Shown here one piece after another: positions 594 through 16,544 of a DNA stretch of 16,544 nucleotides. The notes under the pieces are model-generated. The model was not told the DNA's origin, searched no databases, and saw only the letters and a program-made list of their open reading frames with translations. Both the position numbers and the translations under genes were made by a program. How positions within the stretch are numbered: position 1 is the stretch's first letter; every line of letters begins with the position of its first letter. The DNA comes from Globomyces pollinis-pini (taxonomy: Eukaryota > Chytridiomycota > Chytridiomycetes > Rhizophydiales > Globomycetaceae), in the NCBI GenBank assembly GCA_025399215.1, contig MU621447.1:1-16544 (forward strand), given 5' to 3'.

Positions 594-3441
594 ATGACAG
601 AAAGTAATGGTGCATTGAGGATATCGCAATCGAATTTTAGACCAACTAGTGCTGGTTGGGTTCCATTACGAAAAGGTGATAACGTTTACTTATCAAGGGT
701 ATCTGACAAACTTTACTAATCATCAAAGGAATCAATAAGTCAGGGGGATCCTAGCGCATATAATCAGACAACCGGAGCTTATGGAAGAATCAAATTGGAC
801 TGTTTCCAAGCACCAACTGTTGCTATTGATTTAGGCTGCATGTATGAAAGAATTGGATATTGGAAACAGTCTGTATATTATCCTATAGTGAATAGAAATG
901 GGGAACACGAATTTCTATCAAGAGTATTTTACAATTCAACCAAAAAGGAATATTCAACCAATCCATCATCAATGACCGGATCCATCCGTGGTTGGAAGAG
1001 ATGGATAGTTTCACCTCAAAGTGAATTATCAACCGACGACTATTTCCAGCTCTCAAACACCCAGATTATGAATGACTCCCTATTGGTTAAGTTTATCAAC
1101 GGAGGCAATAGCATTGATATCAACCAACTCTTGTATATAAGCTTACTGAATTTGAAGAAGATGGCTGACGCACAATTTTCAATACCAAGTACTAGTGTCG
1201 TCTTACCTTTACCTAATCATTGGGATTTATATCAAAGACTATTAGTGGAGACTTCTGCAAGAAAAGTTGGGTTTAACGACGTGAAACTAATGTATTCTAC
1301 TACTGCGATAGCGAATTTTGGAATTATTAACAAAATTGTAACGGAAAATATTGTATTGATAGTCGATATTGGAGCTGGAAACACAAATCTTTCAATAATT
1401 CAAGTTGATAAAAAAGGACCAAAAGTTTTAGCAGTTGATGGTTCAACAGCTGTGTCTGGTGGATTATTTACAAAGGTGATTTATGATTACATCCTTACGC
1501 AACTGGACAATATTCAGGAATTGGACTTAAGCATTAAACGGCAGTTATTTAGCGATTGTGAGGATGCAAAAATGGTATTGTCAAATGGTAGCAGTATTGA
1601 CATTTACTTAATGGATGAATGTTTCACGATTGATAAATTGTTATTCGACAGATTGTGCCAAGATACATTGAAGTATTATCTTGAAGTTTCTAATCATGTA
1701 GTTGTTTAACCAATTCAATACTATCGATGGTAAAGAAAACACCGCTAGGACATAAATGGATTCATCAAATCTTATTAGGTGGCGGAGCTTCTCAAATACC
1801 ACCAGTTGAAAAGCAAATGAAAGCAATATTCCCAAACGCGAAGCTTTCTATCGTACCACCTGATGCTGCAGTACGTGGAGCTACGCACTCGCAGAATGAT
1901 GAGAAATTATCCGAGCCACTTCATTATCCTGTTGGGATTAGAGATTGTAATGGGGTATTCCGTCCAATAATTAAAGCGAACCAAGAAATATTGAATGGAG
2001 AATTGCTTGTCACACCTTCAAATTCATCCTTGGCTAATATTTCAATTTATGAAGGGAAGTTTTCAGACTGCAACCGAAACTTGCACTTGGCAACTCTTCA
2101 GATTGATTCACTTCCATTAATGGAAATAGCCCAAATTAGGATCCGACTTGAGTTCAATCAGAACAGGCAATTAATAATTATTGCTAATTTTATCTAGAAC
2201 ACTCAAAATCATTATTGCGGATGATTTATTTCCCGAACTTTCTCAGCAACAATACTTCGTAAACCAGCCAAGAAGTATACTGCAAAATTATATAGAAAGA
2301 GAACAAGAAGACAATGGTTTAATGGTCAGGTTATGTTCTGTTGGCCAAGAAATACCCAAAGGTTCTATTTCTCACGCTAATTATAATAGACGAATCGTCG
2401 CAATCTAATTGGATTGAAATTCCGAATTCAAATAATCAAACAGTGTATTCACTTAGGTTATTGCACATACTTTCAAGGATTGAATCCCCAAAGTTTCATA
2501 CGTTGTCAAGTCACTGTAAAAGTTTAATGATTTTACAGCTGGAAAGTCATAAAGGTTTAGTGAAGGCTTTCCTTGACGCGCCAAAATATTCAGAAAGTGA
2601 AAGTGCCTTTCTACTTTCCTCATCTAATCAGATTTCAGGCCTGATATCTTCTGTAAATGATCTAGTAAAGGAAATCGATGAGGACTTCTGTACGAATGGC
2701 TTTAATTCTAATGATTCGACACAAGACAGACGTCATCGAAACTATGAAACGAAATTAACTAGTTATTTAACTCAATTAGATGATTCACACGGTCATGGAC
2801 AAGATCAGTTGCAGCGATTAAGAAAATCCAGTATCGAATTATGCATTTCTAGACTTGCGATGCTTGAACAATGCCGAAATCTTTTCGTCTCAAAATATTA
2901 CCCGCCAATCAACCATGCACAAGCAAAGCAACATTTTGATGATGGGAATGGAATGGATGAATACAATTCAATATGTATTGACCTCCTTAATTTATGGGAC
3001 TCATTTGAATCCAAAAGCATACTTACTCACCTTCGTGACGAAATGTGTGCCCAGTTGAATAGACAGGAGTTATTTATCAGTGGTTGGATTGCTGAAGCTC
3101 CTCGTTGTAAATTGGATATAGAAGGTGATCTTGATCAAGAGCAATCATTAGTGTTTCAAAAGTTATGTGAGATTCATTGTGAAATAGAAGAGTTTATATC
3201 TTCTAATCATGAGTTAGTAACTCAATCTCCTGTAGTGGTTAACAATGGACGAATTTCTCCCGAATTCAACAAAGCTTTATATATATATGAAGATGCAATG
3301 GTGAAAAAGTTGATTTCACTTGATCGAATTGACACGTTGGGTAATATGGAACTAAGAGCTCTCCGAAAATCGATTGTGACTCTATGTGAATTCAGGTCAA
3401 ATCAAATTGATATACTAAAAAGCTTATATTTGAATTTTTGA
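594..3441 (+). CDS. Divergent Hsp70-superfamily protein, about 909 aa
   Basis: Exons are 594-698, 729-1672, 1702-2166, 2198-2361 and 2390-3441, with introns of 30, 29, 31 (GC-AG) and 28 nt; together they make one 910-codon frame. The Hsp70 fold is visible in order: phosphate-1-like strand AIDLG (res. 67-71), phosphate-2-like VDIGAGNTN (near 248), adenosine-site ILLGGGASQIP (from 373) followed by PPDAAVRGA, then a substrate-binding beta domain beginning YPVGIRD and ending LEFNQNRTLKIIIADD. After this comes a mostly helical C-terminal region of about 380 residues that I cannot match to Hsp110 or Lhs1. About 65 residues precede the ATPase domain, with no signal peptide and no ER retention signal. 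Phosphate-1 reads GCM where ordinary Hsp70s have GTT, and the phosphate-2 glycines are altered, so ATP hydrolysis may be weak. ATG 594 is the first ATG in frame after a stop at 549. It is probably a cytosolic chaperone-like protein; its exact subfamily is unknown. Confidence 0.85.
2167..2197 (+). other. GC-AG intron in the Hsp70-like gene
   Basis: This 31-nt intron has donor context CAG|GCAATT, a GCTAAT branch-site candidate and a CTAG acceptor. Removing it joins EFNQNR to TLKIIIADD, which matches the conserved last strands of the Hsp70 substrate-binding beta domain. The only nearby GT donor (2152) would give a 46-nt intron and delete FNQNR from that strand, so GC-AG is preferred. Confidence 0.7.
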
Positions 3442-3448
3442 CAGAATC

Positions 3449-3454
3449 AATAAA
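3449..3454 (+). terminator. Poly(A) signal candidate of the Hsp70-like gene
   Basis: AATAAA lies 8 nt after the TGA stop, inside the 60-nt gap between two convergent genes. No equally good signal is seen on the minus strand for the RINT1-like gene. Confidence 0.45.
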
Positions 3455-3501
3455 TTGCAGTTTTGTATTAAAGTTCATTATTATCGAATTATAAATTTGT
3501 A

Positions 3502-5939
3502 TTAGAATAAACCTCCTAGTTTGAATCGAACCAGTGTATGTTTCACTTGCTCCACAGACAGTCGTATCCCTAAAGTATCCAATAAATCCATGTCACTTTC
3601 TAGCGATTCAATCAAGTCTGTCATCGAAGTTCCTGTGTCAGATTTCAATGGCAATGATAGAATTAAAATGGCATCGAAGGACCTAAAGATAAATGCCTAA
3701 AGTGCATTACTTTGGAAATTGACTTTTCATGTTCACATTTAGTGTTTTTGCAATCCAATTTAAATCGTGATTTAAACGCTTCACCCCAGACAATCCAAAC
3801 AGTTTGGAGAGTATAAAATTAAAGATATCTGCATCCAACCGGACACAAATCTCGTTCATCAATTCTGCTCTAGATTTTTGAGCAATCTGCTCAAGCAACT
3901 CGGATGTACTCTTCAATTTTTGCAATGAATTGAAGAGGTCTCTTGTGTCATTTTCATCCCAAAACCCAGTCCAATCCGGTCTAATGTTAAGCAAAAAATA
4001 TTTACATATCAAGGTAGTCTAGGGCTGAATCTTGAATCGATGTATGTATCTCTTGTGCTATTGTTTGTATTAATGCCGTTTTTAAATTATTGAAAGAGAG
4101 TATTATATCTTCAAATAAAGACTCTGAGTGATCCTGTTGTTTAGAACCAAGTATGTTGATGAATAACTATTGAATCATTAAGCAACATCAGATTACATCT
4201 TCATTAGACCAATCTCGTAGTAATCCAATTATATACTGAGTTGAGTTAATGCACCCAATTATTTGTAACATATCTTTAAACTTCTGGCTTTTAGTATTGA
4301 TTGGATAAAATCGATTTTGAAATTCTTTATGCACCGTTTCAATGGACTGTATGTATTGCATTAAAAGTGGAAGCATTATATCATTGAAAAACTGAGTTGA
4401 AATATCCAATGATAATAATTGATAGCGGTCTGTTATTATAAGTGCTAATATTTCGAATTACCTATGAGGGATTCAAATAACAGTTGAAACAAATTAGCCG
4501 ATTCTGTAACTTTCTCTTTATCATCAGAAAAATCCTTGAGAAGTGGTAACCATGCTGATTCGCTGCTTAAAATTTCATCCAATTTCGATAAACTATCTAA
4601 CGCAATTAGCTTTGCAAGATACCAGTAGATTCAATCTCGTTCCATTTTGAAAACAGTAAGGAATTTTGAATGAGTTTCCCAACACAGCCTACCCATTCAG
4701 AACCATCTCTTTGGACGTATAATAAATTCTCTTTAATATAATTGTCAAATTTAGAAATTTCCATTATGGTATGAAGAAAAGTAGCAGGCTGATTAGTTAA
4801 CTTGAGCAAGTCGCGATTCATTTTATCTTCAACTAGTAAAATGCACCCCAAAAGAAATTCATTCTTCAATTAAAAAATACAATTACCAATGCAGAAAGTT
4901 GAATATTGTGGTCATCCAGAATACTTTGTACAAATAACTCAAGAAAGATTTGCTGTTCTTTTATCACATTTAATAAGAAGCTTGTGTAATATTCTGGCTT
5001 TTAATGTAAAACATCGCATATAAATAAATACCTTATCGATTTGATTTGTCGGTTTCTTGCCACGAAAATGGAAATTAAATCTTATAAAAAATGATTTAAA
5101 GAGACTTTGAAAGGCATCTATGGTGAACAGCGATTAAAATACCTAATTGTAAGTATAGGTAGTAATATACCAAGCATCACTACGCTGTCAGACGAGCTAA
5201 ATATTTAGACGTCTGTGAACTTACGAATTAGTCAATTGTGATCTACTAGTTATTCCAAATTCCTCTACTTACGGTGCTTTTAATTTAAGAAATGGGAGAA
5301 AGCATTCCTCAAATGCAATTTTATATGAATCGCTTGTATTTGGTGACTTTGGCCAATTCATATCATTGAGTAGATTTGTCAAATTGGTATCAAGCATGGT
5401 TTTCAAGTCGTGATGTGATACTTTTACTGTTTTTTCAAGATGTAATTCATAAGATCCAAAGCAATTCTGAAGCAATTCTAATGATGGAATGTCTTTGATT
5501 TTGAATGGATCCAAGATAGTGAAGTATAATAGATAGATTTCAATAGCTTCATGTATGTTGCTTGAACTCAGCTCATGATTTATTTTCTTTCTAAAACATC
5601 AGGAATTAAGTGACTACTGTAAATCATGCAGTTTTTGCAGTATAGATAAGTATTGGTTTGCCATTTGTAACCTTTTAATCTTTGAATGTGTTTCTAGAAG
5701 CTTTGAATACTGTTCTGAATTTGATAAAGCAACTAAAGCTTCTTTCTCTGATTTAATTTCAGTCTTTAAAGTCTGAAGATTATCCAAAGTTATTGCTGAC
5801 TGTGATATGATTTGTTTTTCTAAAGTATCAGATTTACTCTTCAATGCATTCCACTAGGAGATGAAATAGAAATGGCCTTTACTTTCTTTGTTAAATTGGC
5901 CAGATTATCTGCTTCCAAATTCACCAGATTTTGAATCAT
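3502..5939 (-). CDS. RINT1: RINT1/Tip20-family ER vesicle-tethering subunit, about 691 aa
   Basis: There are 13 exons, from the 5' end: 5939-5883, 5853-5618, 5590-5273, 5245-5225, 5196-5171, 5117-5032, 4997-4887, 4863-4623, 4596-4462, 4429-4197, 4166-4006, 3980-3711, 3682-3502. The introns are 29, 27, 27, 28, 53, 34, 23, 26, 32, 30, 25 and 28 nt, and every junction keeps one frame of 692 codons. An N-terminal coiled coil covers roughly residues 1-95. The centre holds the family signature RFNFHFRGKKPTNQIDK followed by PEYYTSFL, and later LFESLIDRYQLLS and PDWTGFW. The length is close to yeast Tip20 (701 aa). Known role: with the Dsl1/NRZ complex it tethers COPI vesicles returning from the Golgi to the ER and works with ER SNAREs. 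It is a peripheral membrane protein on the cytosolic face. It is divergent from VPS8 and convergent with the Hsp70-like gene. The family is clear; orthology to RINT1 rather than Tip20 naming is a matter of convention. Confidence 0.88.
5118..5170 (-). other. 53-nt composite intron with internal AG|GT junction
   Basis: This is the only long intron in the window. On the coding (minus) strand it consists of a 28-nt GT-AG unit (5170-5143) immediately followed by a 25-nt GT-AG unit (5142-5118). Removing the full 53 nt joins SVVML to DAFQSLF in frame and restores the conserved RINT1 region. Removing only the first unit would regenerate a 5' splice site. Confidence 0.7.
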
Positions 5940-5996
5940 TTGCGCAAAGTGATTTTTCCTAATTTGATTAAAACAAGTGAAATTGGCGAAGATAGC
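5940..5996. promoter_or_regulatory. 57-bp bidirectional promoter / 5' leader between RINT1 and VPS8
   Basis: Only 57 bp separate the minus-strand ATG (5939-5937) from the plus-strand ATG (5997). Both transcription starts and leaders must fit in or overlap this spacer, unless upstream non-coding exons exist. No TATA box is visible. Confidence 0.55.
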
Positions 5997-8900
5997 ATGG
6001 AACAGAATCATTCAGGAAAAGATCAAGAGAATGTAGGAGCAGAGTTATCACTTTTGTCAGGATCGGAAAGTAGTGAAATTGTAATGCAAGAGATGGATAT
6101 TCCATCAGTAGAAAGTAATCCAAGTTTCAGCGTACTGACTGCAGGCCATCTGGTTAGAATTCAGGGATTATATTTAAAGCATTTGATTCCAGAAACAGAG
6201 TTGCTGGATACTCCACCACAAGTCCTGGTTGATCGAATTCGATACTTTGACCAACTTCGAACAATGACACTACAACTACATGAACCAGGGATTGCATCTG
6301 CCCCTCAGGCACTTGCTTTGCATGACCGGATTACACGGGATATGGCATTATATCAGCATTTCGCGGATTCACCTCAATCTCTAGCTCTATCACTCACTGC
6401 TAGTTCAGATGTACATTTTCCTTCAAATTATAATAACTCTCTAAATACTTCAAATCACCCCTCTTCCCTTCATAGACCACCTTCCATGACTTCTCTACAC
6501 TCTACTCAACGAACTACACTCTCCACCACAATCATACCCCCAACGGTGTCTCTAGATGATTCTTTTTTTACTGTTCCTCCTGGTAAAGACTTTGAGCATA
6601 ATATTTTAGGGCCTTTAAACATATTTCGGTGGACATCGTTACGACTTTTGACTGGATCAATTTTCAACTCAGAATTCGAGACTCAATTTGGTCTCCCCAC
6701 AGTATTTTCGGTATAATTGACTGACATTGCTTATAATATCGTTAGGTTACAGCTGGAATTGCCATAGGAACTACAAAATCTATCATTATGCTGTATGATA
6801 TGAATCAACAGCTGTCTGGCACACTTGGTTCTATTGAAGATGGTAAAATTTAACTCTGTTAACTATAGAAAAATCATATGGGTCGGTCACTTGCTTAGAT
6901 GTGAGCTCAGATCAAACGCAAATAGTTGTGGGTTATGCAAACGGATTTGTAACCTTTTGGGACTTACAAAATCGAAATTGCTTAAAAATTGTCAGCCCTG
7001 TCGCACCACTTTCGACTGCTGATGGTCATCTTATTGGCCTACCAATAGTGTCCGTTGCATGCTCCACAAAAGATAAGTTTTTTTCGTGCGATTTTGTGGT
7101 ATTGACTTTCTTTTTGATGATCAGGGTACCGCATTCTTTCATACTCTACTTCGGCGTGTCCTTTATATCTCGATGAGGTCAATAAGAATACATGGCAAGA
7201 AAGTTATAAATGCCGAAGATCCTTTAGTTTCTACAACAGTTCGGTCTTTGCAGGCCATTTCCAAATCCAACGTCAAATACCCTGGTGATACGTCTCTCCT
7301 TGTAGCCATTTCGTCTCCATATAAAATTGCAATTCTATGCATGAAACCAACTCCTCAAATTATTTATCGATCTACATGGGTAAATTTACAAAAGCTGGAT
7401 AAAGAAAGGCCTATTACACAAGTGAATCAGTCTCACCTAAAATGGTGGGTTCCAACAAAAAACAAACATGGTATTTGATTATCCTAACGTTTAGCTCTTG
7501 CCCCTTCTCATCCAATTCTTGCCTTCTCTTATGAAAATGTGTTAGGGATTTTATACGTGACTTGGGGAGTTAGTGAAACCCCTGAAGGATCAATACCCAA
7601 ATTAGTGTTTAGAATACAAAACCAAATTGAATGTCCCAGTCCAATAACTTCCATTAATTGGATTAACTCTCAGGTAATCTCATGATCTATTATTCATATC
7701 CATACAGTTTATTCTGTGCAGCTGTGAAGATGATACTTTCAGAATATATGAAGCATCGAAACTATCTTTTGTTGAATCATCCTCAATGACTCCCAGAAAG
7801 CTACTACAGAACATCAAATGGCCTGAAAATGTCAACGCATCGATAGACTTTGTACCAACCTTTAATCATAGTATTTGCTCTTCCTTTCATCGCCTATTTG
7901 CTTTAACCGAAGCTGAATTCTGTTTTGCGACACTGCTAACTTGGCAAGATAGGATATCAGTTTTAGTCAGAGCTGGCCGATTTTCAGATGCATTCGAAAT
8001 GGGTGTTGAACTGTATAAAGGGAACTTTCCAGTTGCGGTATGGGGCATTCCAGTAACACAAGAAGAGAGAGAGCATGCCTTATCTGATCATCTGGCGGGT
8101 TTAGTCTTGAATTTAGTATCTATGTCATTATCCAGCTACAACGAATCAGATGGTGACGTTGCAACTTATGAATCGACTTGTAAACTGGTATTTGAAACTT
8201 GCCTTGCTATTGAAAAGTCGGAATTAATATTTGGGGAAATTTGGGATCGGTTTGAAGACGCTGGACTGGAAAATATCTTTATATCTATTCTGCAAAATTT
8301 GATATTGGTTGAATCTATCACCGCTGTTCCTAACCCGCATATTATTCAGGTTATGTTTTCACAGGAAAAATTGAACCCCGCTGTAATTGAACAAGTTGTG
8401 CTTCATTTGGATCCTCGTAGTTTGGATTTGAATCACACGATCGGTGTGTGTAAAAAACTGGGATTAATGAATGCACTGTTTTATGTTTACAACCGTGGCT
8501 TGTCAGATTATAAAAGCCCTCTCATTGAGGTCCTTTCAATGCTGACACCAGATAACTTAAATGAATTAGTTGATACCTTGAAACAGCAAATTTATACTTT
8601 GTTTGTCTATATTGCCTTTATTCTTACCGGAAAGTCTTTTCCAATGGGAGAACTGCCAGAGGAAGAATACAGAACGGCATCAAATGATATTTTGGGGTTC
8701 CTATGTTCACCAACGTTTCTTAAACATGGAAAGAATTCCGTATTAGCAGTAGGAATAGAGCCTTGGCCTTATTTTCAAATATTATTAGAATTAGATACAT
8801 TTGAAATGCTGAAAGTTTTGGGGGCTGTATTCGACAGTCAATCATTGGATATGGGTATTGCATTAGAGCAGAATAACACACTTTTAATCACTCGACAATA

Positions 8901-10873
8901 TGTGATCAATCTATTATTACATCTCATCGAGTCTGGCAATTGGACTCAAGAGCAACTGGACAATATCTATTCATTTATTGGTCGGGCATATTACAAACAT
9001 AGTGTCAGTCTGAAGCTACATAAACTGGAGTTGATGAAAATATTCAAGGCTTTGTTGTCCAGCGAACTGGCAGCCACTATAGAAATGCGACAGATTGCAT
9101 TGCTATCACTGTATGATGCTGGTTTTTCGCCAGCGAGAGCAGATTCTGACAAAGAGGTTTACTTGGAGCAGTTCCAAAAGGCACAATTTTGGAGAGTGTA
9201 CGAAAGGATTGTTCTACAAGATAACAAATTTGATTTGGCTATACATTCTTATATTCAAGATCCAAGCAGGCAAACTGAAATGTACAAGAATATCCGCAGA
9301 TGGCTGAATGACACATCGTTAAACTTAAATGATTTATCTCTGATTAAGAATACAATTAAGACTAGATTAGGTGAAATTGTCTGGGATGGCCTTGAAATTA
9401 CAAAACTGTTTACTGACTACTGGCCCTCCGAACACTACGATATGATTGAATCTCTTGCATCAAATCTAGAAGCTCAGTTCTATTATATCGGAGGACTGAT
9501 AAACCCATCAGAAAATTCCACAAATATTAAATCTGGGAATTTATCAGCTGTATATGAAAGAAGAATATATGATTTATATATTAGATTGATGAGCTCTCTC
9601 AAACCCAACGAGGTGAGGCCTTTTTTGGAGTGGTGTGGAGGGATGTTTCTGGAAGTGCCATATTCACAGCAGGAAGTGCTTCAAATTTGTACAGATGAAG
9701 GTTTAACAGATGGATTGATATACTTACATAAACAAATGGGAAATTACCACCAGTCAGTTACACTTTGCATTGACCAGTTACTGGAAAATTTGGCAGAGTT
9801 TGAAAAATGTGAGTTGACGCCATGTAATTCATCAAAGAAACTTCAGCCATCTAGATCGACTGATAACGATATAAGCCTTGTACATTTAACTTTAACTAAA
9901 CAATCACAACCAAAAACGGAAGATGATGGAAAACTAATGCAGAATGTGGAAAAGCAGGCGTATTACTATTTAAATCAATGTATAGAAATATGTGAAAATT
10001 ATACCAGTGAAGTAGGTAAGAGTGCTAGTGAAATAGCATATTACTCCATGCTCGAACGTATTTGCTTCCAATTAGAGGCCGTTACCGATTTGCATTCATC
10101 GATAAGAGATAAAGCAATTACTTTTGTCATGACAGTTGTTTCAATTCCCTCAATTTTGATTCGACTCTTTCAATGTAGAAGCAATGTTCAGTTTGGAAAG
10201 TATAAAAGCTTGGTTAGCTATTTATTAGCCACATGTGGACATCAAAAAATCACATTAGAATATGTTAATGAAATTGTGAATTCGTATCTGTTTGAAGATT
10301 ACAACGAGTTAGTCAAGTCAACAAAATCGTCTTTCCATCCATCGTTGGGCCAATGCCAACTCTGTAGACGCCTATTTCATATCAGGGTAATGACTATTCA
10401 ACAGCAAAAAGATCGAGTCATTTTATTCAAATGCCATCATGGTTATCACTTGAGATGTTTAAAGGATACTTTAGAAACAGTTCAATTACAGATGGGGATC
10501 GGAGGTTCTTTAGATGATTACGAATTGTGGTATGAATTTACGATATTAAATGGTAGGTGTGTCGTGTGTGGTAGTCCATCGGAACAGAAACGGAAAGGAA
10601 AACTTTCGGCTGCATTACTTCCTCCTAAAACGGTAACTCGATATTGTTTTAATAGTAAGGTAGCTGAAATAGATGAACCTACAAAAGAAGATGTTGTGGA
10701 ACAATCATATGTCAATATCGATTCGCATATCTACAAAAAATCCAACATGGTAACCCAGTTTTAGATTTAATATTCAATAGTTTGATACGTATCGAAGCTT
10801 GAAACTCCTGAATGATAAGCTAGATGAAGATGAAATACAAATGAATGAAAGTTTTATTGAAGATAGATTTTGA
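5997..10873 (+). CDS. VPS8: VPS8, CORVET tethering complex subunit, about 1565 aa
   Basis: Exons are 5997-6710, 6746-6842, 6869-7095 (or 7098), 7125-7470, 7495-7673, 7708-10749 and 10781-10873. Introns are 35, 26, 29 (or 26), 24, 34 and 31 nt. The N-terminal 190 residues are polar and Ser/Thr-rich. A beta-propeller follows, starting at FRWTSLRLL with AGIAIGTTKSIIMLYD and YANGFVTFWDLQN, the typical Vps8 blades. A long alpha-solenoid leads to a C-terminal RING with C1404, C1407, C1430, H1432, H1435, C1438, C1472 and C1475. Known role: Vps8 binds Rab5/Vps21 and, with Vps3 and the class C core, tethers early endosomes. The last exon adds 30 acidic residues ending EDRF. Reading through its intron would instead stop at TAG 10762-10764, which is less likely because the 31-nt segment looks like the other introns and the next exon is open in the right phase. 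Human VPS8 is about 1430 aa. Confidence 0.95.
10750..10780 (+). other. Last intron of VPS8, hiding the true C-terminus
   Basis: This 31-nt segment starts GTAACC and ends AATAG, with an A/T-rich TTTAATATTC tract before the acceptor. It contains the in-frame TAG that would end the protein. It lies between codons (phase 0), and the following 30 sense codons are open and rich in Asp/Glu. Confidence 0.7.
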
Positions 10874-11225
10874 TCATTGGATTGATTGAAGAAATAGTTT
10901 AGTTTGAATAATTGTAACTTCTAAATATATAAGATTCATATTGAAATGTTCGCCTTTCATTTGATGGCATGACCATCGTTCAAACATCTAGAAAATTCTG
11001 CTCGTGATTCGATTGAATCACAACATGTCCTCAATTCGCGAAAACCAAGATACAACATACGAATTCATTGCTCAGCTAACGATATCCACGTTTATTTATA
11101 CATGGTACGTTTATTGTTTATCATGGTATCAAAAAATCATCAGATGTGTTTCAACGGAAAGCCTGTTATGATCACCTGAAGTCTTTTTAAATCCTGCATC
11201 AAATCAGATTTTCTTTGACTTTTTA
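10874..11225 (+). promoter_or_regulatory. Intergenic and 5' region of the repeat protein gene
   Basis: No confident gene lies here. It contains an 18-nt perfect hairpin at 11004-11021 (GTGATTC, loop GATT, GAATCAC) and, at 11032-11044, a 13-mer CAATTCGCGAAAA that recurs upstream of the P450 gene. A 48-codon open frame starts at ATG 11025 and has a hydrophobic stretch, but I could not link it by splicing to the gene downstream. A possible leader intron (11181-11207, 27 nt, GT to CAG) ends 18 nt before the ATG at 11226. Confidence 0.35.
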
Positions 11226-11609
11226 ATGAAAACTTTCCTTCCTGAACTACAGTCGATCTCCGAAACTCTTTTCAAACCAGTGGATTTATCAACACTTACA
11301 AAGCCTTTAGGGACTTTGGATTTGATGCGACCTTTCCCAACTTTGGATGCTTTTGATGATGAAAATTCTGATATTCCTCAACAAACTAGTCCAGAGAGTG
11401 CCAATTCTAAACAATACGAAATATTCAATATTTTGAAACCGTTAGGAACATTGGACATTATGCAACCATTCCCAACATTGGATAATTTTGATGAAGACCA
11501 TTCAGATACGGTTGTTATCAATGATCCATTAGCTATATCCTCAGTTACATTAACAAGTCTTCAAAAGAGTATGTCTGCTTTTCACTAACAATTAGTGATG
11601 ACTGAATAG
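11226..11609 (+). CDS. Small acidic protein with a duplicated 24-residue motif, about 118 aa
   Basis: Exons are 11226-11568 and 11596-11609. The 27-nt intron is a textbook example (GTATGT donor, ACTAAC branch candidate, TTAG acceptor) and replaces the apparent end SMSAFH with MMTE and a TAG stop. I do not recognise the protein. Residues 26-49 and 71-94 are copies of one motif, consensus KPLGTLD[LI]M[RQ]PFPTLD then x-FD and an acidic tail ending SD, identical at 18 of 24 positions. Eight of the codons differ only synonymously, so the protein motif, not the DNA, seems to be conserved. The protein lacks signal peptide, membrane segment and visible fold, so it is probably disordered with two linear binding motifs. 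It might bind a partner or activate transcription; neither is shown. The start at ATG 11226 is tentative because frame 0 remains open just upstream and a leader intron is possible. Confidence 0.7.
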
Positions 11610-11628
11610 TGTTTTAAGATTCTGTTTT

Positions 11629-11634
11629 AATAAA
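11629..11634 (+). terminator. Poly(A) signal candidate of the repeat protein gene
   Basis: AATAAA lies 19 nt after the TAG stop, facing the OGG1 signal 22 nt further on. Confidence 0.5.
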
Positions 11635-11656
11635 GTCTTTTTGTGAATAATATTTG

Positions 11657-11662
11657 TTTATT
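11657..11662 (-). terminator. Poly(A) signal candidate of OGG1
   Basis: On the minus strand AATAAA lies 19 nt beyond the OGG1 stop. The two convergent genes therefore have closely spaced 3' signals in a 72-nt spacer, and their mRNAs may overlap. Confidence 0.5.
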
Positions 11663-11681
11663 TTAACAGTATATTGAAGGT

Positions 11682-12951
11682 CTATCGTTTACGTTTCTTT
11701 GTTGGACCTTTCTGGAACATACTTAAATCTGCTGCAAACAAGATTGTATGTGCCCATCCCGAGTACGTCCCAAATTTCTTCAGAAACAATTCGTGTATGC
11801 TCTTATAAACTTTTGGAGTTAGTGTTGTTCCTTTTAAATTATAGTCTCGTTGAGCGATTTGCCAAACGTGAGTGTCAACTGGAATCGCGTCGTATTTGTC
11901 CATGCTAAAGTCAATAATCTGATCACGAAATACCTAAATAAACATATGCAATCGGCAACCTTGGGTCCCACTACAAGTTAATGATAATGCAAAAACCTCC
12001 AGTTAATTTCAATAATTCAGATTTCGTATCTTCCATTTGATGTATATTGGCCAACCAACTTTCACCTTGATCTGATATAAACTTGACACTAATTGCGATA
12101 TATTTGGCACGATAACCAAACCCAAATTCACGAAGTTTACTTTCCAAATTCTTTTGACTGTTTAATGATTGCAACGTTGGAAACGAATAAAATTCTTGAT
12201 TCACTTGATTATGATCTAAAACATTTCCATAGTAGTCTCCATACTCTTTACAGAGTCTTTGAACCATAGATGTAATTCTTGGAATGTTGTTATTTGACGA
12301 ACAAATAAACGATAGAATTGTTTCCAACTTTGGCTGCTTAAGTATTCTTAACCCTTCAAAACCAATTGATTTCTTTTCAAAATTAGAATCATTTCTCCAT
12401 TCTTTCCTGTTCAAGAGTCAATTACGTGATAGATACCATAGAGGTGCTAAGAGAATATCCAACTGAAAATAACTTCGCAATTGTCTTCGAACTTCTTCCA
12501 CTGTTTGGTTGTTCCGTATCTATTACCGTTTAGAAATAATATACATAAATACAGTAAATAAAACGTCATCATTTGTCTGTCTAAGGGTTATCCAAGAAGT
12601 ATCCAATACACATGTCCACTCTGAAATGTTAGTTTGGATCCATCGAAATGACTGTCCAGAGACCAAAGATTTCTCGATTCTTAGTTCAGTGGGTTTAACC
12701 TCAAGAGAATGCCAGATTAATCCATCATGTGGAAGTTCAATATCATCGCTTTTGCAATCCTGAGAACCAAATTCATTTTTGATAGGATTTTCATCCATTA
12801 TATTGGCTTGTGTTTCGGTTTTTACAATTGAATCAGAATGATTGTAGGTTGTTGTTGTATCTTCTGTGATTGAATCACTTACTTCTATTTTAACTTTCTT
12901 TAGAGTTTCTGAATCCTCTGATCCGGAGTTTATAATAGGTTTACAGTCCAT
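11682..12951 (-). CDS. OGG1: OGG1, 8-oxoguanine DNA glycosylase/AP lyase, about 383 aa
   Basis: Exons from the 5' end are 12951-12553, 12519-12437, 12406-11997, 11970-11934 and 11904-11682, with introns of 33, 30, 26 and 29 nt. It removes 8-oxoguanine from DNA and nicks the abasic strand in base-excision repair. All hallmarks are present: WHSLEV (from 80), SGQSFRW (98-104), SFICSSNNNIPRI (from 193, the strand-inserting asparagine loop), the hairpin LTGVGPKVADC with catalytic Lys301, and IPVDTHVW with catalytic Asp320, followed by WQIAQRDY. The first 75 residues are an acidic, Ser/Thr-rich extension not seen in human OGG1, and the C-terminus PTKKRKR looks like a nuclear localisation signal. 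ATG 12951 is the only in-frame ATG in its open frame, which continues upstream without a stop for about 60 codons. The gene is convergent with the repeat protein gene and divergent from the sulfatase-like gene. Confidence 0.96.
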
Positions 12952-13285
12952 TTTGCCAGATATTGTTATATGTTTTGTAATATCAAGAATTGAGACCGGT
13001 ATCGATTTCGGATGATATTTGCTATTGAACAAAGGTAAAGTTGATACAATAGGAAGAACCGAGAATACTGTTGTTTTGTATATAATTGGCAAGGTTAATT
13101 TGGATAAAATGACAATTTTGAGACAAATGGAAATAGGTTAACAAAGAATTTAATTTTTACGAAAGTGACGGTTTATCCATGAATGTTTCTTGGATACTTT
13201 CTTCTTTCTGTTCTTGGTCTAGGAATACCGGATAAAATTGATCATTCTTGGCTAATGAATTGAAAACTGTTGCCTTTGTTTCAAC
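12952..13285. promoter_or_regulatory. Spacer between divergent OGG1 and sulfatase-like gene
   Basis: This 334-bp stretch should carry both promoters. The OGG1 frame stays open to about 13138 on the minus strand without an ATG, encoding a hydrophobic, Lys-containing stretch that could be chance or a non-AUG extension. A separate 44-codon open frame lies on the minus strand at about 13155-13290, but it has no start and no splice link. No TATA box is obvious. Confidence 0.35.
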
Positions 13286-15477
13286 ATGTTAAAGTCGTTT
13301 TTACTTGCCAATATTCTATCAAATGCCCTTTATAAACTGTACATTTCATATATAGAAGCAGAACAAGTGGATTTAATATGGTTTGTATGGTGTCCGTCAG
13401 TGTTTCTATCTGATGGACTATTCTTTGGACTATTATATTGGATTTATACTGGCATAGAATCATCAAAAACTACGGCTATTGTAAGAGTTATGTATGGGTC
13501 ATTATTTATGATGATGAATGTTGTATACTTATTCGCATTGCTTGCAGCAAGTACTTATTTAGCATTTACTGGTTCAATGGTAATATCGTTTGTCTAAGAA
13601 TAGTTGAATTTTGCCTTGATTGGTGATGTAGGAGAAGAGATTTCTGAGTTTGGTCCAATGTTATCTTCTGCAAAACAGTACATTGGTGTTTTTGTATTGG
13701 TGTATATTGTTCTTTACACCGTGATATATCTACTGAATAATATGCACCACAAGAAATCAAAAGGAAACCGATTACGGAAGAAGCAAGTAGTTATGCAAAC
13801 GCTGTTATGTATAACATATCTTCTATTGGTGTTCGTTTATCGACCATTAACTCCATGGGACGCAATATCTACAAATATATTTTTAGAAGTATTAGATGGC
13901 CCGAAAAGGGATGAAATGCCAGAGTATTTCTAATCCGACCTAATCATTTTAGTTTACATTGTTTTCCAATTCTGGACAAAAATGCCTTGTCTCCTGCTGG
14001 ATTATTTAACTTAACTACAAAAACTACATCTAACTCAAGCTCAATCTTTATTCAACCGGATTCTTTGCGAGATGTACATGATTTCCGATTTTTGAATACC
14101 ACACCAAAGCAAAACACCATAAAGAACATTGTTTGGGTTTTTATAGAATCAGGTCGAAATGATTTGTGGCCGATGGACTACAATTCTAAAATCGCAAAAG
14201 AGTACTTCAATAATGAAACCAGACATATGAAACCTATCAATCCATTTTATTCCAAGTTAGTTAATGAATCACTCTGGATCCAAGGAGCTACTACTACTTC
14301 CAGTTATACTATCAAATCATTGGCAAGCAGTCTTTGCTCTATGTCGCCGCTTCCAGCAGATTTTGCAAAGGAACGAAACTACCCATTTTACAAAACATGT
14401 TTGCCGGAACTTCTCAACACTCATGGTTTCAGTACACTATATTTACAACCTTCAAGTATAAATTTTGATTTGCAGTACATTGTCCTGGAAAAGACTGGTA
14501 TCCCCTGGTTTGCAAAATCAAGCATTGATGAAGGTGGGTTGGATTCGTTTGGTGGAGAAAAGCCAGAAGAAATTAATTACTTTGGATATCAGGATCAAGT
14601 TTTAATTCCGAAAGTTATAGATTTTATAAAAAACTCTACAGCACATCAAAAACCTTATTTTTTGTCGCTCTTAACAAACGCAAATCATCATCCATTTGGA
14701 ACACCAAAGAACTGGACTATGAGAGAATTTACTGCTGATGAAAAGATGAATCAATTTTTTAATTCTATCGCATATGTGGATACTTATTTAGAGAGTTTGA
14801 TCAGCGAACTAAAAACGCTAGATCCTAGAAATGAAACCCTATATATATTTACGGGAGACCATGGCTATGGTTTAAACGAATATGGTATGTCAGGGGCATG
14901 TGGAAATGGATATGAACAGGCATTCAAGATAACAATGTCATTACATACTGAAAATAAATATTTCAAGAAAATACTTGGCCATCAGAAAATCTTTGGAAAC
15001 TATGAAAACACTGATATCGTACCTACTATTCTTGACATTTTAAATTACGATAATTTCAACCCGCAAATCAGATTGGATTATGGTTACGAAGGAGATAGTT
15101 TGTTGCACGCATATCGGCCTAGACCAACATTTTCGTATGGAAATCCGGGCCTATCCGTTGTCGTTTTCCGAGAAAATGGTCTAAAATTGCTCTTGCAAGT
15201 AGATATTTGCAAATTTACAGTTTATGACTTGATTCAAGATCCGAACGAGTTAAACCCAGTCGACATTAACACAAATGAAACAGTAAAATTATGGGTTGAG
15301 TATGGAAAATATAAAATGCACTCGGAAATCAAAAGAGTTCGATCAGAGTATCATTTCGATGATACACCCAAATCCACTGTTCCTGTCGTAGTAATTATCA
15401 TATTGATGGTTACACTAATCTGTTTATGTTCAGGTACTGCGAACAAGACTGAATATCAAACGGTGTCTTCAAAATAA
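13286..15477 (+). CDS. Polytopic membrane protein with sulfatase/alkaline-phosphatase-fold domain, about 712 aa
   Basis: Exons are 13286-13579, 13604-13923 and 13953-15477, with introns of 24 and 29 nt. The first 200 residues hold about four hydrophobic helices and end with RPLTPWDAIS, an arrangement typical of fungal sulfatase-domain membrane proteins and comparable to bacterial LtaS. The catalytic domain follows: NIVWVFIESGRND with metal-ligand candidate Glu270, TTTSSYTIKSLASSLC with probable nucleophile Thr324 in place of the Cys/Ser of true sulfatases, and IFTGDHGYG with metal ligands Asp507 and His508. NHHPFG may supply another His. Several N-x-S/T sites fit an extracytoplasmic domain. 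A further hydrophobic helix lies at about 679-698. Likely activity is a metal-dependent phospho- or sulfo-transfer/hydrolysis at the membrane; the substrate is unknown. Alternative 3' splicing (15463-15489) would change the last residues and move the stop to 15523-15525. Confidence 0.85.
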
Positions 15478-15565
15478 ATTAAATATTAGTCTGTTAGTAA
15501 TGATGGTTCCCCACTTCCACTTTGAGATTTTTCCCCCTTGTGCCACTTTCATTTTGATGGCCCCG

Positions 15566-15578
15566 CAATTCGCGAAAA
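15566..15578. promoter_or_regulatory. Shared 13-mer with TTCGCGAA palindrome core, second copy
   Basis: CAATTCGCGAAAA is identical to 11032-11044. Both copies lie about 180-215 bp upstream of a start codon, on the same strand. The core resembles E2F/MBF-type sites, but no binding factor can be assigned from sequence alone. Confidence 0.3.
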
Positions 15579-15741
15579 TCATCCAAATTTGCACTCCTTT
15601 TAATTGCAGTCACATAATCAGTTAGTGAATTATTTTAGACACCAAAAAGGAGGCCTTTTTAAATCCAAAAATCGCTTTTGGTGGGAAACACTGATCAATG
15701 TGGCTTACCATACTAAAGTGGAAATGGAATTTAATGAAAAG

Positions 15742-15747
15742 TATAAA
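15742..15747 (+). promoter_or_regulatory. TATA-box candidate for the P450 gene
   Basis: TATAAA lies 32 nt upstream of the ATG, which would leave a leader of only a few bases. It could be chance in this AT-rich DNA. Confidence 0.25.
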
Positions 15748-15779
15748 TCAAAGGAAAAAATAAAGGAAAGTCTACAAAT

Positions 15780-16544
15780 ATGGATATCATCAGATATGAA
15801 TTAGTTGAACAGGTGTTGGCTGCCGGAAAAGAAAATCCAACTATAGTAAAAACTTTGGTAGTTATTGGAGGTTTATTGATTTGGTCAAAATTACCAAAAT
15901 CAAGTAAAATCCCTGGTCCACCTACCATTCCTTTAATAGGAAATTATCAAATGATAGCGTATGCTTTTTGTCTGCTTATCCTAGTCATTCATTTTCAAGA
16001 ACTGTCAATGAGTACTTTATCAAACTCAACAATCAATACGGACCATTGGTGGAATTAAAGCAAATGACATTGTATAATCCCAATCGATTAACACTATTAG
16101 GACCAACTATGTTGTTGCTGATGCTTATGAAGTGAAGCGAATCCTCACTGATACAACAACGTTTTCTAGAAGTGAACTGTTCCAACAAATTGGAAGGTAA
16201 CTTGTACTATTAATTGATCATAGTGGGTTGTTCCATCACGCTCTGTTTGTCCTTCCCAGTGGCGAACAATGGAAACGACACCGAAAGTTGATTCAACCTG
16301 CCTTTGGTCCAACACATCTCAGACATGCAGCATTGGTTTCAGTGGAAACTATGGGTGAACTTATCACTACACTGGATGCAATGTTCACAGATTCTGACAC
16401 GGTAAAAGTTAATATGCATGGTGCTTTAACGGCCACTGCACTGGACGTTGTGTAAGACACTAAAACATTTAACATTAGTGGCAAAGTAGCATTTGGAGAG
16501 TCTCTTCATTCAGTTGAACGATTTTCAAGTGGAGGAGATACAGT
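15780..16544 (+). CDS. Cytochrome P450, N-terminal part (3' end outside window)
   Basis: Exons are 15780-15958, 15985-16071, 16101-16196, 16224-16451 and 16479 to the window edge, with introns of 26, 29, 27 and 27 nt. P450s are haem-thiolate monooxygenases; this one has a microsomal layout. A hydrophobic anchor (TLVVIGGLLIW) is followed by the proline hinge IPGPPTIPLIG, then YGPLVELKQMTLTNYVVAD (beta-1 region), TFSRSELFQQIGSGL (B-C region), the helix-C haem-propionate motif GEQWKRHRKLIQPAF with the W-x-x-x-R pattern, and ALDVVGKVAFGESL. The I-helix, ExxR and haem-binding Cys lie beyond the window. The splice chain is supported by the continuous P450 alignment at every junction. ATG 15780 is the first ATG in frame directly before the anchor. 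Family and substrate cannot be assigned. Confidence 0.94.

Follow-up and report, generated by a model that had tools for sequence, protein, structure and literature searches.

What are the numerous segments of about 28 nucleotides (nt) that interrupt the genes of contig MU621447.1 of Globomyces pollinis-pini, a chytrid of the order Rhizophydiales? The whole stretch of 16,544 nt, referred to here as the window, corresponds to C358 among the 459 contigs of an 18.55-Mb genome assembly; passages of PMC13391722 cite Amses et al. 2022 for the genome of this fungus. Judging from the DNA and its predicted products, the segments are very probably U2-type spliceosomal introns, which would fall within a narrow band of 24 to 35 nt throughout the sampled G. 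pollinis-pini genome. The spliceosomal, ultrashort nature proposed for them in a first-pass annotation of the window is supported, also on other contigs.

Using a spliced dynamic programme together with homology, a curated set of 36 intron units was derived across six genes of the window: HSP70-BAG (4), RINT1/TIP20 (13), VPS8 (9), OGG1 (4), a sulfatase-domain gene (2) and a cytochrome P450 gene (4). All units are 23 to 35 nt long, with a median of 28, in good agreement with the first-pass annotation, which had listed 33 ultrashort introns, nearly all of 23 to 35 nt. The donor is GTA in 33 of the 36 units, 28 end in TAG and 21 contain the motif YTRAY; approximately 29 GTA starts and 26 TAG ends had been reported earlier. 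The intron caller demanded a GT or GC donor and an AG acceptor; 35 units proved to be GT-AG and one (2167-2197) GC-AG, showing that introns of this size can also have a donor other than GT. Thirteen of the 36 units have lengths that are multiples of three (3n). If two directly abutting units in RINT1 are counted once, the window holds 35 introns, 34 of 23 to 35 nt and one of 53 nt. After intron removal all six frames lacked internal stops (the unspliced start frames contain from 11 to 98) and conserved proteins were restored, which upholds the earlier statement that the genes are continuous only once introns of about 28 nt are removed. The public G. pollinis-pini proteins for VPS8, HSP70-BAG and RINT1 (n = 3) match the window letter for letter; along its entire length, the 992-amino-acid VPS8 frame shows 100% identity to the 1511-amino-acid NCBI protein P0001. 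Matches to known families also run across the junctions, with the PF04437 match in the spliced RINT1 model (221-683) spanning seven of 13, and the alignment of OGG1 to PDB 1ko9 and the p450 match (residues 45-210) each taking in all four. The least secure introns are 10633-10659, 12402-12425 and both of those in the sulfatase gene (13580-13603 and 13924-13952). The genes and introns are as follows.

594..3441, + strand, gene for an HSP70-like protein with a C-terminal BAG domain (Pfam HSP70 and BAG; public protein P0005)
699..728, +, intron of 30 nt, 3n with stop (model equals public protein)
1673..1701, +, intron of 29 nt (model equals public protein)
2167..2197, +, GC-AG intron of 31 nt (2059-2166, kept by the model, aligns to HSP70 7kw7)
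2362..2389, +, intron of 28 nt (model equals public protein)
3502..5939, - strand, RINT1/TIP20 family gene (PF04437, spliced model 214.8 bits; public protein P0008)
5854..5882, -, intron of 29 nt (model and public protein)
5591..5617, -, intron of 27 nt, 3n with stop (model and public protein)
5243..5272, -, intron of 30 nt, 3n with stop (model and public protein)
5197..5224, -, intron of 28 nt (model and public protein)
5143..5170, -, intron unit of 28 nt abutting 5118..5142 (model and public protein)
5118..5142, -, intron unit of 25 nt abutting 5143..5170 (model and public protein)
4998..5031, -, intron of 34 nt (model and public protein)
4864..4886, -, intron of 23 nt (the segment kept by the model occurs in 8/8 aligned homologues)
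4597..4622, -, intron of 26 nt (model and public protein)
4430..4461, -, intron of 32 nt (model and public protein)
4167..4196, -, intron of 30 nt, 3n with stop (model and public protein)
3981..4005, -, intron of 25 nt (model and public protein)
3683..3710, -, intron of 28 nt (model and public protein)
5997..10873, + strand, gene for VPS8, a CORVET subunit (TPR_Vps8, 148.9 bits; public protein P0001)
6583..6609, +, intron of 27 nt, 3n stopless, translated in the public protein (its 9 residues are missing from homologues P0002 and P0003)
6711..6745, +, intron of 35 nt (public protein)
6843..6868, +, intron of 26 nt (public protein)
7099..7124, +, intron of 26 nt (public protein)
7471..7494, +, intron of 24 nt, 3n with stop (public protein)
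7674..7707, +, intron of 34 nt (public protein)
10530..10556, +, intron of 27 nt, 3n stopless, translated within the public RING finger (its 9 residues are missing from P0002 and P0003)
10633..10659, +, probable intron of 27 nt, 3n stopless, low confidence (splice score only; unconserved region)
10750..10780, +, intron of 31 nt, absent from the public model (on removal the C-terminus resembles Boothiomyces P0002)
11682..12951, - strand, gene for OGG1, 8-oxoguanine glycosylase (PDB 1ko9, spliced model 224.2 bits)
12520..12552, -, intron of 33 nt, 3n with stop (model and OGG1 alignment)
12402..12425, -, intron of 24 nt, exact ends uncertain (model and OGG1 alignment)
11971..11996, -, intron of 26 nt (removal restores the OGG1 helix-hairpin-helix)
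11905..11933, -, intron of 29 nt (model and OGG1 alignment)
13286..15477, + strand, gene for a sulfatase-domain protein (Sulfatase, 116.8 bits)
13580..13603, +, predicted intron of 24 nt, 3n with stop (model only)
13924..13952, +, predicted intron of 29 nt (model only)
15780..16544, + strand, cytochrome P450 gene, truncated at the contig end (p450, 63.5 bits, residues 45-210)
15959..15984, +, intron of 26 nt (model and p450 match)
16072..16100, +, intron of 29 nt (model and p450 match)
16197..16223, +, intron of 27 nt, 3n with stop (model and p450 match)
16452..16478, +, intron of 27 nt, 3n with stop (model and p450 match)

The survey beyond these genes applied a gene model, for which long open frames had served as training data, to the window and to 20 stretches of 10 kb drawn from C1 to C95, and calls with GT..AG ends were compared with calls made for decoy pairs. 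With no splice-site matrix and flat lengths (penalty -7), 25 GT..AG introns of 25 to 34 nt were called against 6, 6, 7 and 6 for the decoy pairs, and GT..AG calls at 40 to 400 nt in the window and the 20 stretches did not exceed the decoys. Matrices retrained for each pair gave 74 calls of 20 to 39 nt against 15 and 15 for two decoys. A flat length prior up to 150 nt gave 145 GT..AG calls of 20 to 39 nt against 18, 30, 25 and 15, with no excess at 40 to 150 nt (107 against 135, 156, 119 and 104); in this run the matrix came from calls of up to 80 nt and the decoys were scored with the GT..AG matrix, not their own. Forbidding exons shorter than 9 nt left the outcome at 20 to 39 nt unchanged (145 against 17, 30, 23 and 15), and a learned length prior yielded 297 calls against 34 to 56. 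The narrow length distribution described in the first-pass annotation therefore recurs, as the same 24- to 35-nt peak, in 20 further stretches decoded with no length preference; this range makes up 97% of the 272 calls of 20 to 45 nt. Scaling the raw call rate to the genome gives 26,381 introns, and after discounting decoys and split pairs the number is estimated to be on the order of 20,000. A retrained gene model, which performed worse for the window, was the source of the called intron density, approximately 2.75 per kb of coding sequence, and of the sample proteins. The same model lists no genes at all in one stretch of 10 kb (L024, C75:1-10000).

Predicted proteins from the sample were consistent with correct removal of these segments. 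A Pfam family was matched by all nine of those tried (eight of 10 listed sample proteins and the window P450). The predicted FAP251, with 16 introns, aligned at 308.7 bits to chain Xj of PDB 9fqr, with 13 of the 16 junctions in aligned stretches; this chain is labeled Adenylate kinase 7, and the next five matches are labeled CFAP251 or FAP251. The predicted VPS11 (12 introns) gave strong matches to Pfam VPS11 and a weaker one to PDB PEP5 (65.8 bits). Outside the window, the genes for SF1 (6 introns), UPF1 (8), Cwc25 (3, of 27 to 33 nt) and Isy1 (3, of 28 to 38 nt) were likewise continuous after intron removal. A check for an introner-like origin found that seven of 3886 equal-length intron pairs were at least 70% identical against 1.6 (standard deviation [SD], 1.0) in shuffled sequences, a slight excess that common splice signals could explain.

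The anatomy of the introns was examined in the 272 calls of 20 to 45 nt with known phase. GTA donors were found in 90% and TAG acceptors in 74%, and the G+C content was 25%. YTRAY was present in 161 of the 272 against 77.3 (SD, 7.5) in shuffled interiors, a twofold enrichment. Median distances from the A of the last YTRAY (n = 161) are 18 nt to the first base of the intron and 8 nt to its last base, in line with the earlier description of a compressed branch point and acceptor; the distance to the last base is most often 6, 7 or 8 nt. Thirty-three introns with YTRAY have the A 6 nt from their final base and none has it at 4 or 5 nt, as if a minimum spacing existed between the branch-like A and the intron end. 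An additional AG occurs between this A and the acceptor in 14 of the 161. Of the 83 introns of 3n length, 71 contain a stop, compared with 58.6 (SD, 3.5) in shuffled sequences; as the gene model overlooks stopless 3n introns, selection for stops in 3n introns cannot be claimed from this difference.

The genome was also searched for parts of the splicing machinery. U2 small nuclear RNA (snRNA) was found (135.4 bits), with the branch-recognition stretch GUGUAGUAUC intact. A predicted protein matched PDB Splicing factor 1 (SF1) at 197.8 bits, its gene model having six introns of 25 to 29 nt and one later exon that is probably wrong. A U2AF65-like gene on contig C16 was found in four pieces covering profile positions 191-508, the best at 94.7 bits and thus below the whole-protein cut-off of 310.3; matches below this cut-off were also obtained in two of 14 control genomes. 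UPF1 was found, Isy1 aligns with its PDB chain from residue 4, and Cwc25 aligns with its PDB protein from the first residue, with 14 of 14 residues identical through MGGGDLNLKKSWHP. The protein families tried other than RED (SF1, U2AF65, UPF1, Isy1 and Cir_N) were therefore all matched (5/5), although they sample the spliceosome only in small part. No candidate for RED_N or RED_C emerged in this genome, nor did any control genome match, so this is not an absence. The genome check for lost splicing factors suggested in the first-pass annotation thus located SF1, a U2AF65-like gene and U2, while U6 gave no match in an uncontrolled search. In the Cwc25 gene (L036, contig C17) a predicted 33-nt intron parts the conserved start MGGGDL from NLKKSWHP, so the Cwc25 message itself seems to need ultrashort splicing.

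How far the deposited annotation contains these introns was determined from the three public proteins mapped to the window, not from gene records; the mapper permits zero-length exons and GC-AG ends, by which 53 nt became 28 + 25 and 139 nt became 108 + 31. The three proteins imply 22 introns, 19 of 24 to 35 nt and the others of 53, 98 and 139 nt. Public models contain 19 of the 25 introns of HSP70-BAG, RINT1 and VPS8 (20 of 26 with the RINT1 pair split), which does not fit the earlier expectation that standard gene finders would call such genes frameshifted or pseudogenic. By class, they contain 14 of 17 frame-shifting introns (15 of 18 with the pair split), five of five 3n introns with a stop and none of three stopless 3n introns. 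The actual faults are that stopless 3n introns are read through, that one last intron is missed and that two long introns are false. The missed intron is that at 10750-10780 in VPS8, where the public model terminates at a stop within it. Introns 6583-6609 and 10530-10556 of VPS8 are supported because P0002 and P0003 lack the nine residues; these are both of the homologues that span the first site, and at the second site a third homologue, P0004, diverges. Correcting the RING region gave a small gain with Pfam zf-RING_Vps41 (30.5 against 29.1 bits) and no gain with the Pfam VPS8 RING models. P0004, a JGI metagenome protein, has approximately eight extra residues at the position of 10530-10556, followed by an apparently frame-shifted CxxCG reading; its source may share an ultrashort intron at this site that was left unspliced by the gene model. 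In G. pollinis-pini, occasional retention of stopless 3n introns, such as that in the VPS8 RING finger, may add nine residues to the protein.

The two long introns are that of 98 nt in RINT1 (4789-4886), which deletes a segment common to all eight aligned homologues (of 10 found), and that of 139 nt in HSP70-BAG (2059-2197), which deletes residues alignable to HSP70 7kw7. As conserved residues are deleted, and a 23-nt intron and the 31-nt GC-AG intron account for the two cases and fit better, both look wrong. Two other segments of the HSP70-BAG gene were not accepted as introns: 1947-1976, proposed by a forced gene model, aligns to HSP70 as a conserved segment, and 2445-2477 (33 nt) has no support apart from the public protein that implies it. 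Besides itself, a search with the HSP70-BAG protein gave just two weak HSP70 matches. In OGG1, the alignment keeps a small insertion beside intron 12402-12425, and an alternative 35-nt intron ending at 12402, judged by eye, was dropped because it creates a stop. The N-terminal part of the sulfatase-domain protein is long and hydrophobic. A small open reading frame at 11226-11588 (+) carries the motif KPLGTLD(L/I)M(R/Q)PFPTLD twice and has no Pfam match. A 27-nt segment called in a small open reading frame (11569-11595) was excluded as an unsupported intron.

The alternative that survives best is that the introns fall into two classes, most being ultrashort and a smaller number at least 50 nt long, the latter including double-length introns made from two abutting units. 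It is considered possible, though clearly the lesser prospect, and its odds were raised because the recount revealed the 53-nt case. In RINT1 5118-5170 there is no exon between the units, and the public protein corresponds to a single removal of 53 nt, exactly 28 + 25; this is either one 53-nt intron or two introns spliced one after the other. Eight pairs of units of 25 to 34 nt in the sample also abut, and these and the RINT1 pair may be introns of 50 to 65 nt split by the decoder. The deposited models further imply introns of 98 and 139 nt, but these are the two that remove conserved residues, and introns of 23 and 31 nt give a better account of them. With exons shorter than 9 nt forbidden, 22 GT..AG introns of 40 to 65 nt were called against 39, 39, 22 and 23 for decoys, although the survey cannot tell sparse longer introns from decoy noise. 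Abutting ultrashort pairs were located at 5118-5170 (-) in the window and in sample stretches L013, L021, L025 and L026.

A second alternative, that the interruptions are assembly or sequencing indels or mark decayed genes, was named in the first-pass annotation as what would refute it; it is nevertheless highly improbable, since the interruptions share donor, branch and acceptor signals, the narrow band is missing from decoys, OGG1 and FAP251 are restored on removal with few gaps near junctions, and the public gene models concur at 19 of 25 introns. The least credible explanation is removal by a nonspliceosomal route, either DNA elimination of the internal eliminated sequence (IES) type or ribosomal bypassing: the lengths are like those of short ciliate IESs, but the GT(A)..AG ends and positioned YTRAY are spliceosomal, the genome encodes U2, SF1 and a U2AF65-like gene, and no IES system is known from fungi.

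Several points weigh against a genome-wide population of ultrashort spliceosomal introns. The introns are known here from DNA and deposited proteins, not transcripts, and U1 and U6 gave no match in the genome, in searches that lacked a working positive control, so this is not an absence. The survey covers approximately 1.2% of the genome, partly masked (10,256 N in 251 kb). Outside annotated genes the introns depend on a gene model built for this analysis, whose decoy rates at 20 to 39 nt are 11 to 19%. This model is blind to introns longer than 400 nt, and retraining on the exons it had predicted made it lose most of the window genes. Decoding with the length prior also produced 10 exon-less neighboring pairs, eight of them with both units of 25 to 34 nt.

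If the segments are spliceosomal introns, each would be recognized as one compact unit, by intron definition, consisting of a GTA donor, a degenerate YTRAY with its A approximately 18 nt after the first base, and mostly a TAG acceptor approximately 8 nt further on. The YTRAY motifs would serve as the branch points, and almost no room would be left for a pyrimidine tract between the branch A and the acceptor. The pathway of SF1, U2AF and U2 would commit the intron, and a conventional catalytic core would splice it. Where TAG|GTA units abut, the two may be removed one after the other, with an exon of zero length between them. The narrow band could be kept by a bias toward shrinkage, bounded by a spliceosomal minimum. 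According to passages of PMC6692369, the donor and branch helices of the human B complex are separated by approximately 21 nt (15 nm), and a short distance between donor and branch makes Smu1 and RED necessary in humans. As the donor-to-A distance is only about 18 nt here, the human B-complex layout would not apply unchanged. Should RED, with Smu1, be truly absent, activation might use a different B-complex arrangement with ordinary Isy1 and Cwc25, unlike the proposal for Stentor, but this is regarded as unlikely.

Comparison with known systems places these introns close in size to those of Paramecium, which are approximately 25 nt (passages of PMC5014332). The same passages describe a deficit of 3n introns in Paramecium and many introns with in-frame stops, whereas no gross 3n shortage exists in Globomyces (83 of 272 calls; 13 of 36 in the window) and stop enrichment is inseparable from detection bias. 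Heterotrich (Stentor) introns are 15 to 16 nt (passages of PMC10245619 and PMC9505925) and occur genome-wide, with snRNAs and most spliceosomal proteins retained (PMC9505925, in part). Globomyces similarly combines ultrashort introns with kept spliceosomal components, but its introns are nearly twice as long and its branch A would lie approximately 18 nt from the donor, while that of Stentor is at position 10. An unusual Cwc25 N-terminal plug and a nonconserved Isy1 N terminus are described for Stentor in parts of PMC9505925; in contrast, the N-terminal regions of Globomyces Cwc25 and Isy1 align to PDB chains, and their ordinary appearance suggests that a 28-nt intron does not need a Stentor-type change. 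A narrow ultrashort band is also shared with mikrocytids (16 to 17 nt) and chlorarachniophyte nucleomorphs (18 to 21 nt) (passages of PMC10245619). Their genomes are strongly reduced, as is the mikrocytid spliceosome, whereas Globomyces has 18.5 Mb, every protein family tried other than RED was matched and no loss was shown among tested factors. The first-pass statement that few eukaryotes are comparable thus holds as to rarity, but its list was incomplete, having omitted the mikrocytids (PMC10245619, in part).

Among fungi, the average intron of Cryptococcus is 56 nt, with the highest share of short introns among those compared in a 2025 paper (passages of PMC11913375), and a mean of 63 nt is given for Cryptococcus neoformans in passages of PMC8476143. 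Both C. neoformans and Globomyces are intron-rich fungi with short introns, those of Globomyces being about half as long. No report of ultrashort chytrid introns was among the matches listed from open-licence literature, with genome-portal statistics outside this search, and novelty is not shown; no chytrid intron lengths are given in the passages seen of PMC5364385, PMC13391722, PMC7466969, PMC6733946 and PMC3569864. An intron-rich fungus nevertheless seems to be a new lineage for ultrashort introns.

For annotation, the hazard is that stopless 3n introns become 9-residue inserts, one of them in a RING finger, and that false long introns cause conserved residues to be lost. If the three checked genes are typical, the proteome of G. 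pollinis-pini, and comparisons that use it, would carry many such errors. With these introns, an intron-rich fungus would join the few eukaryotes that have near-minimal introns, and the limits of spliceosome geometry would become open to study in an organism whose splicing factors, as far as tested, look like those of solved spliceosome structures.

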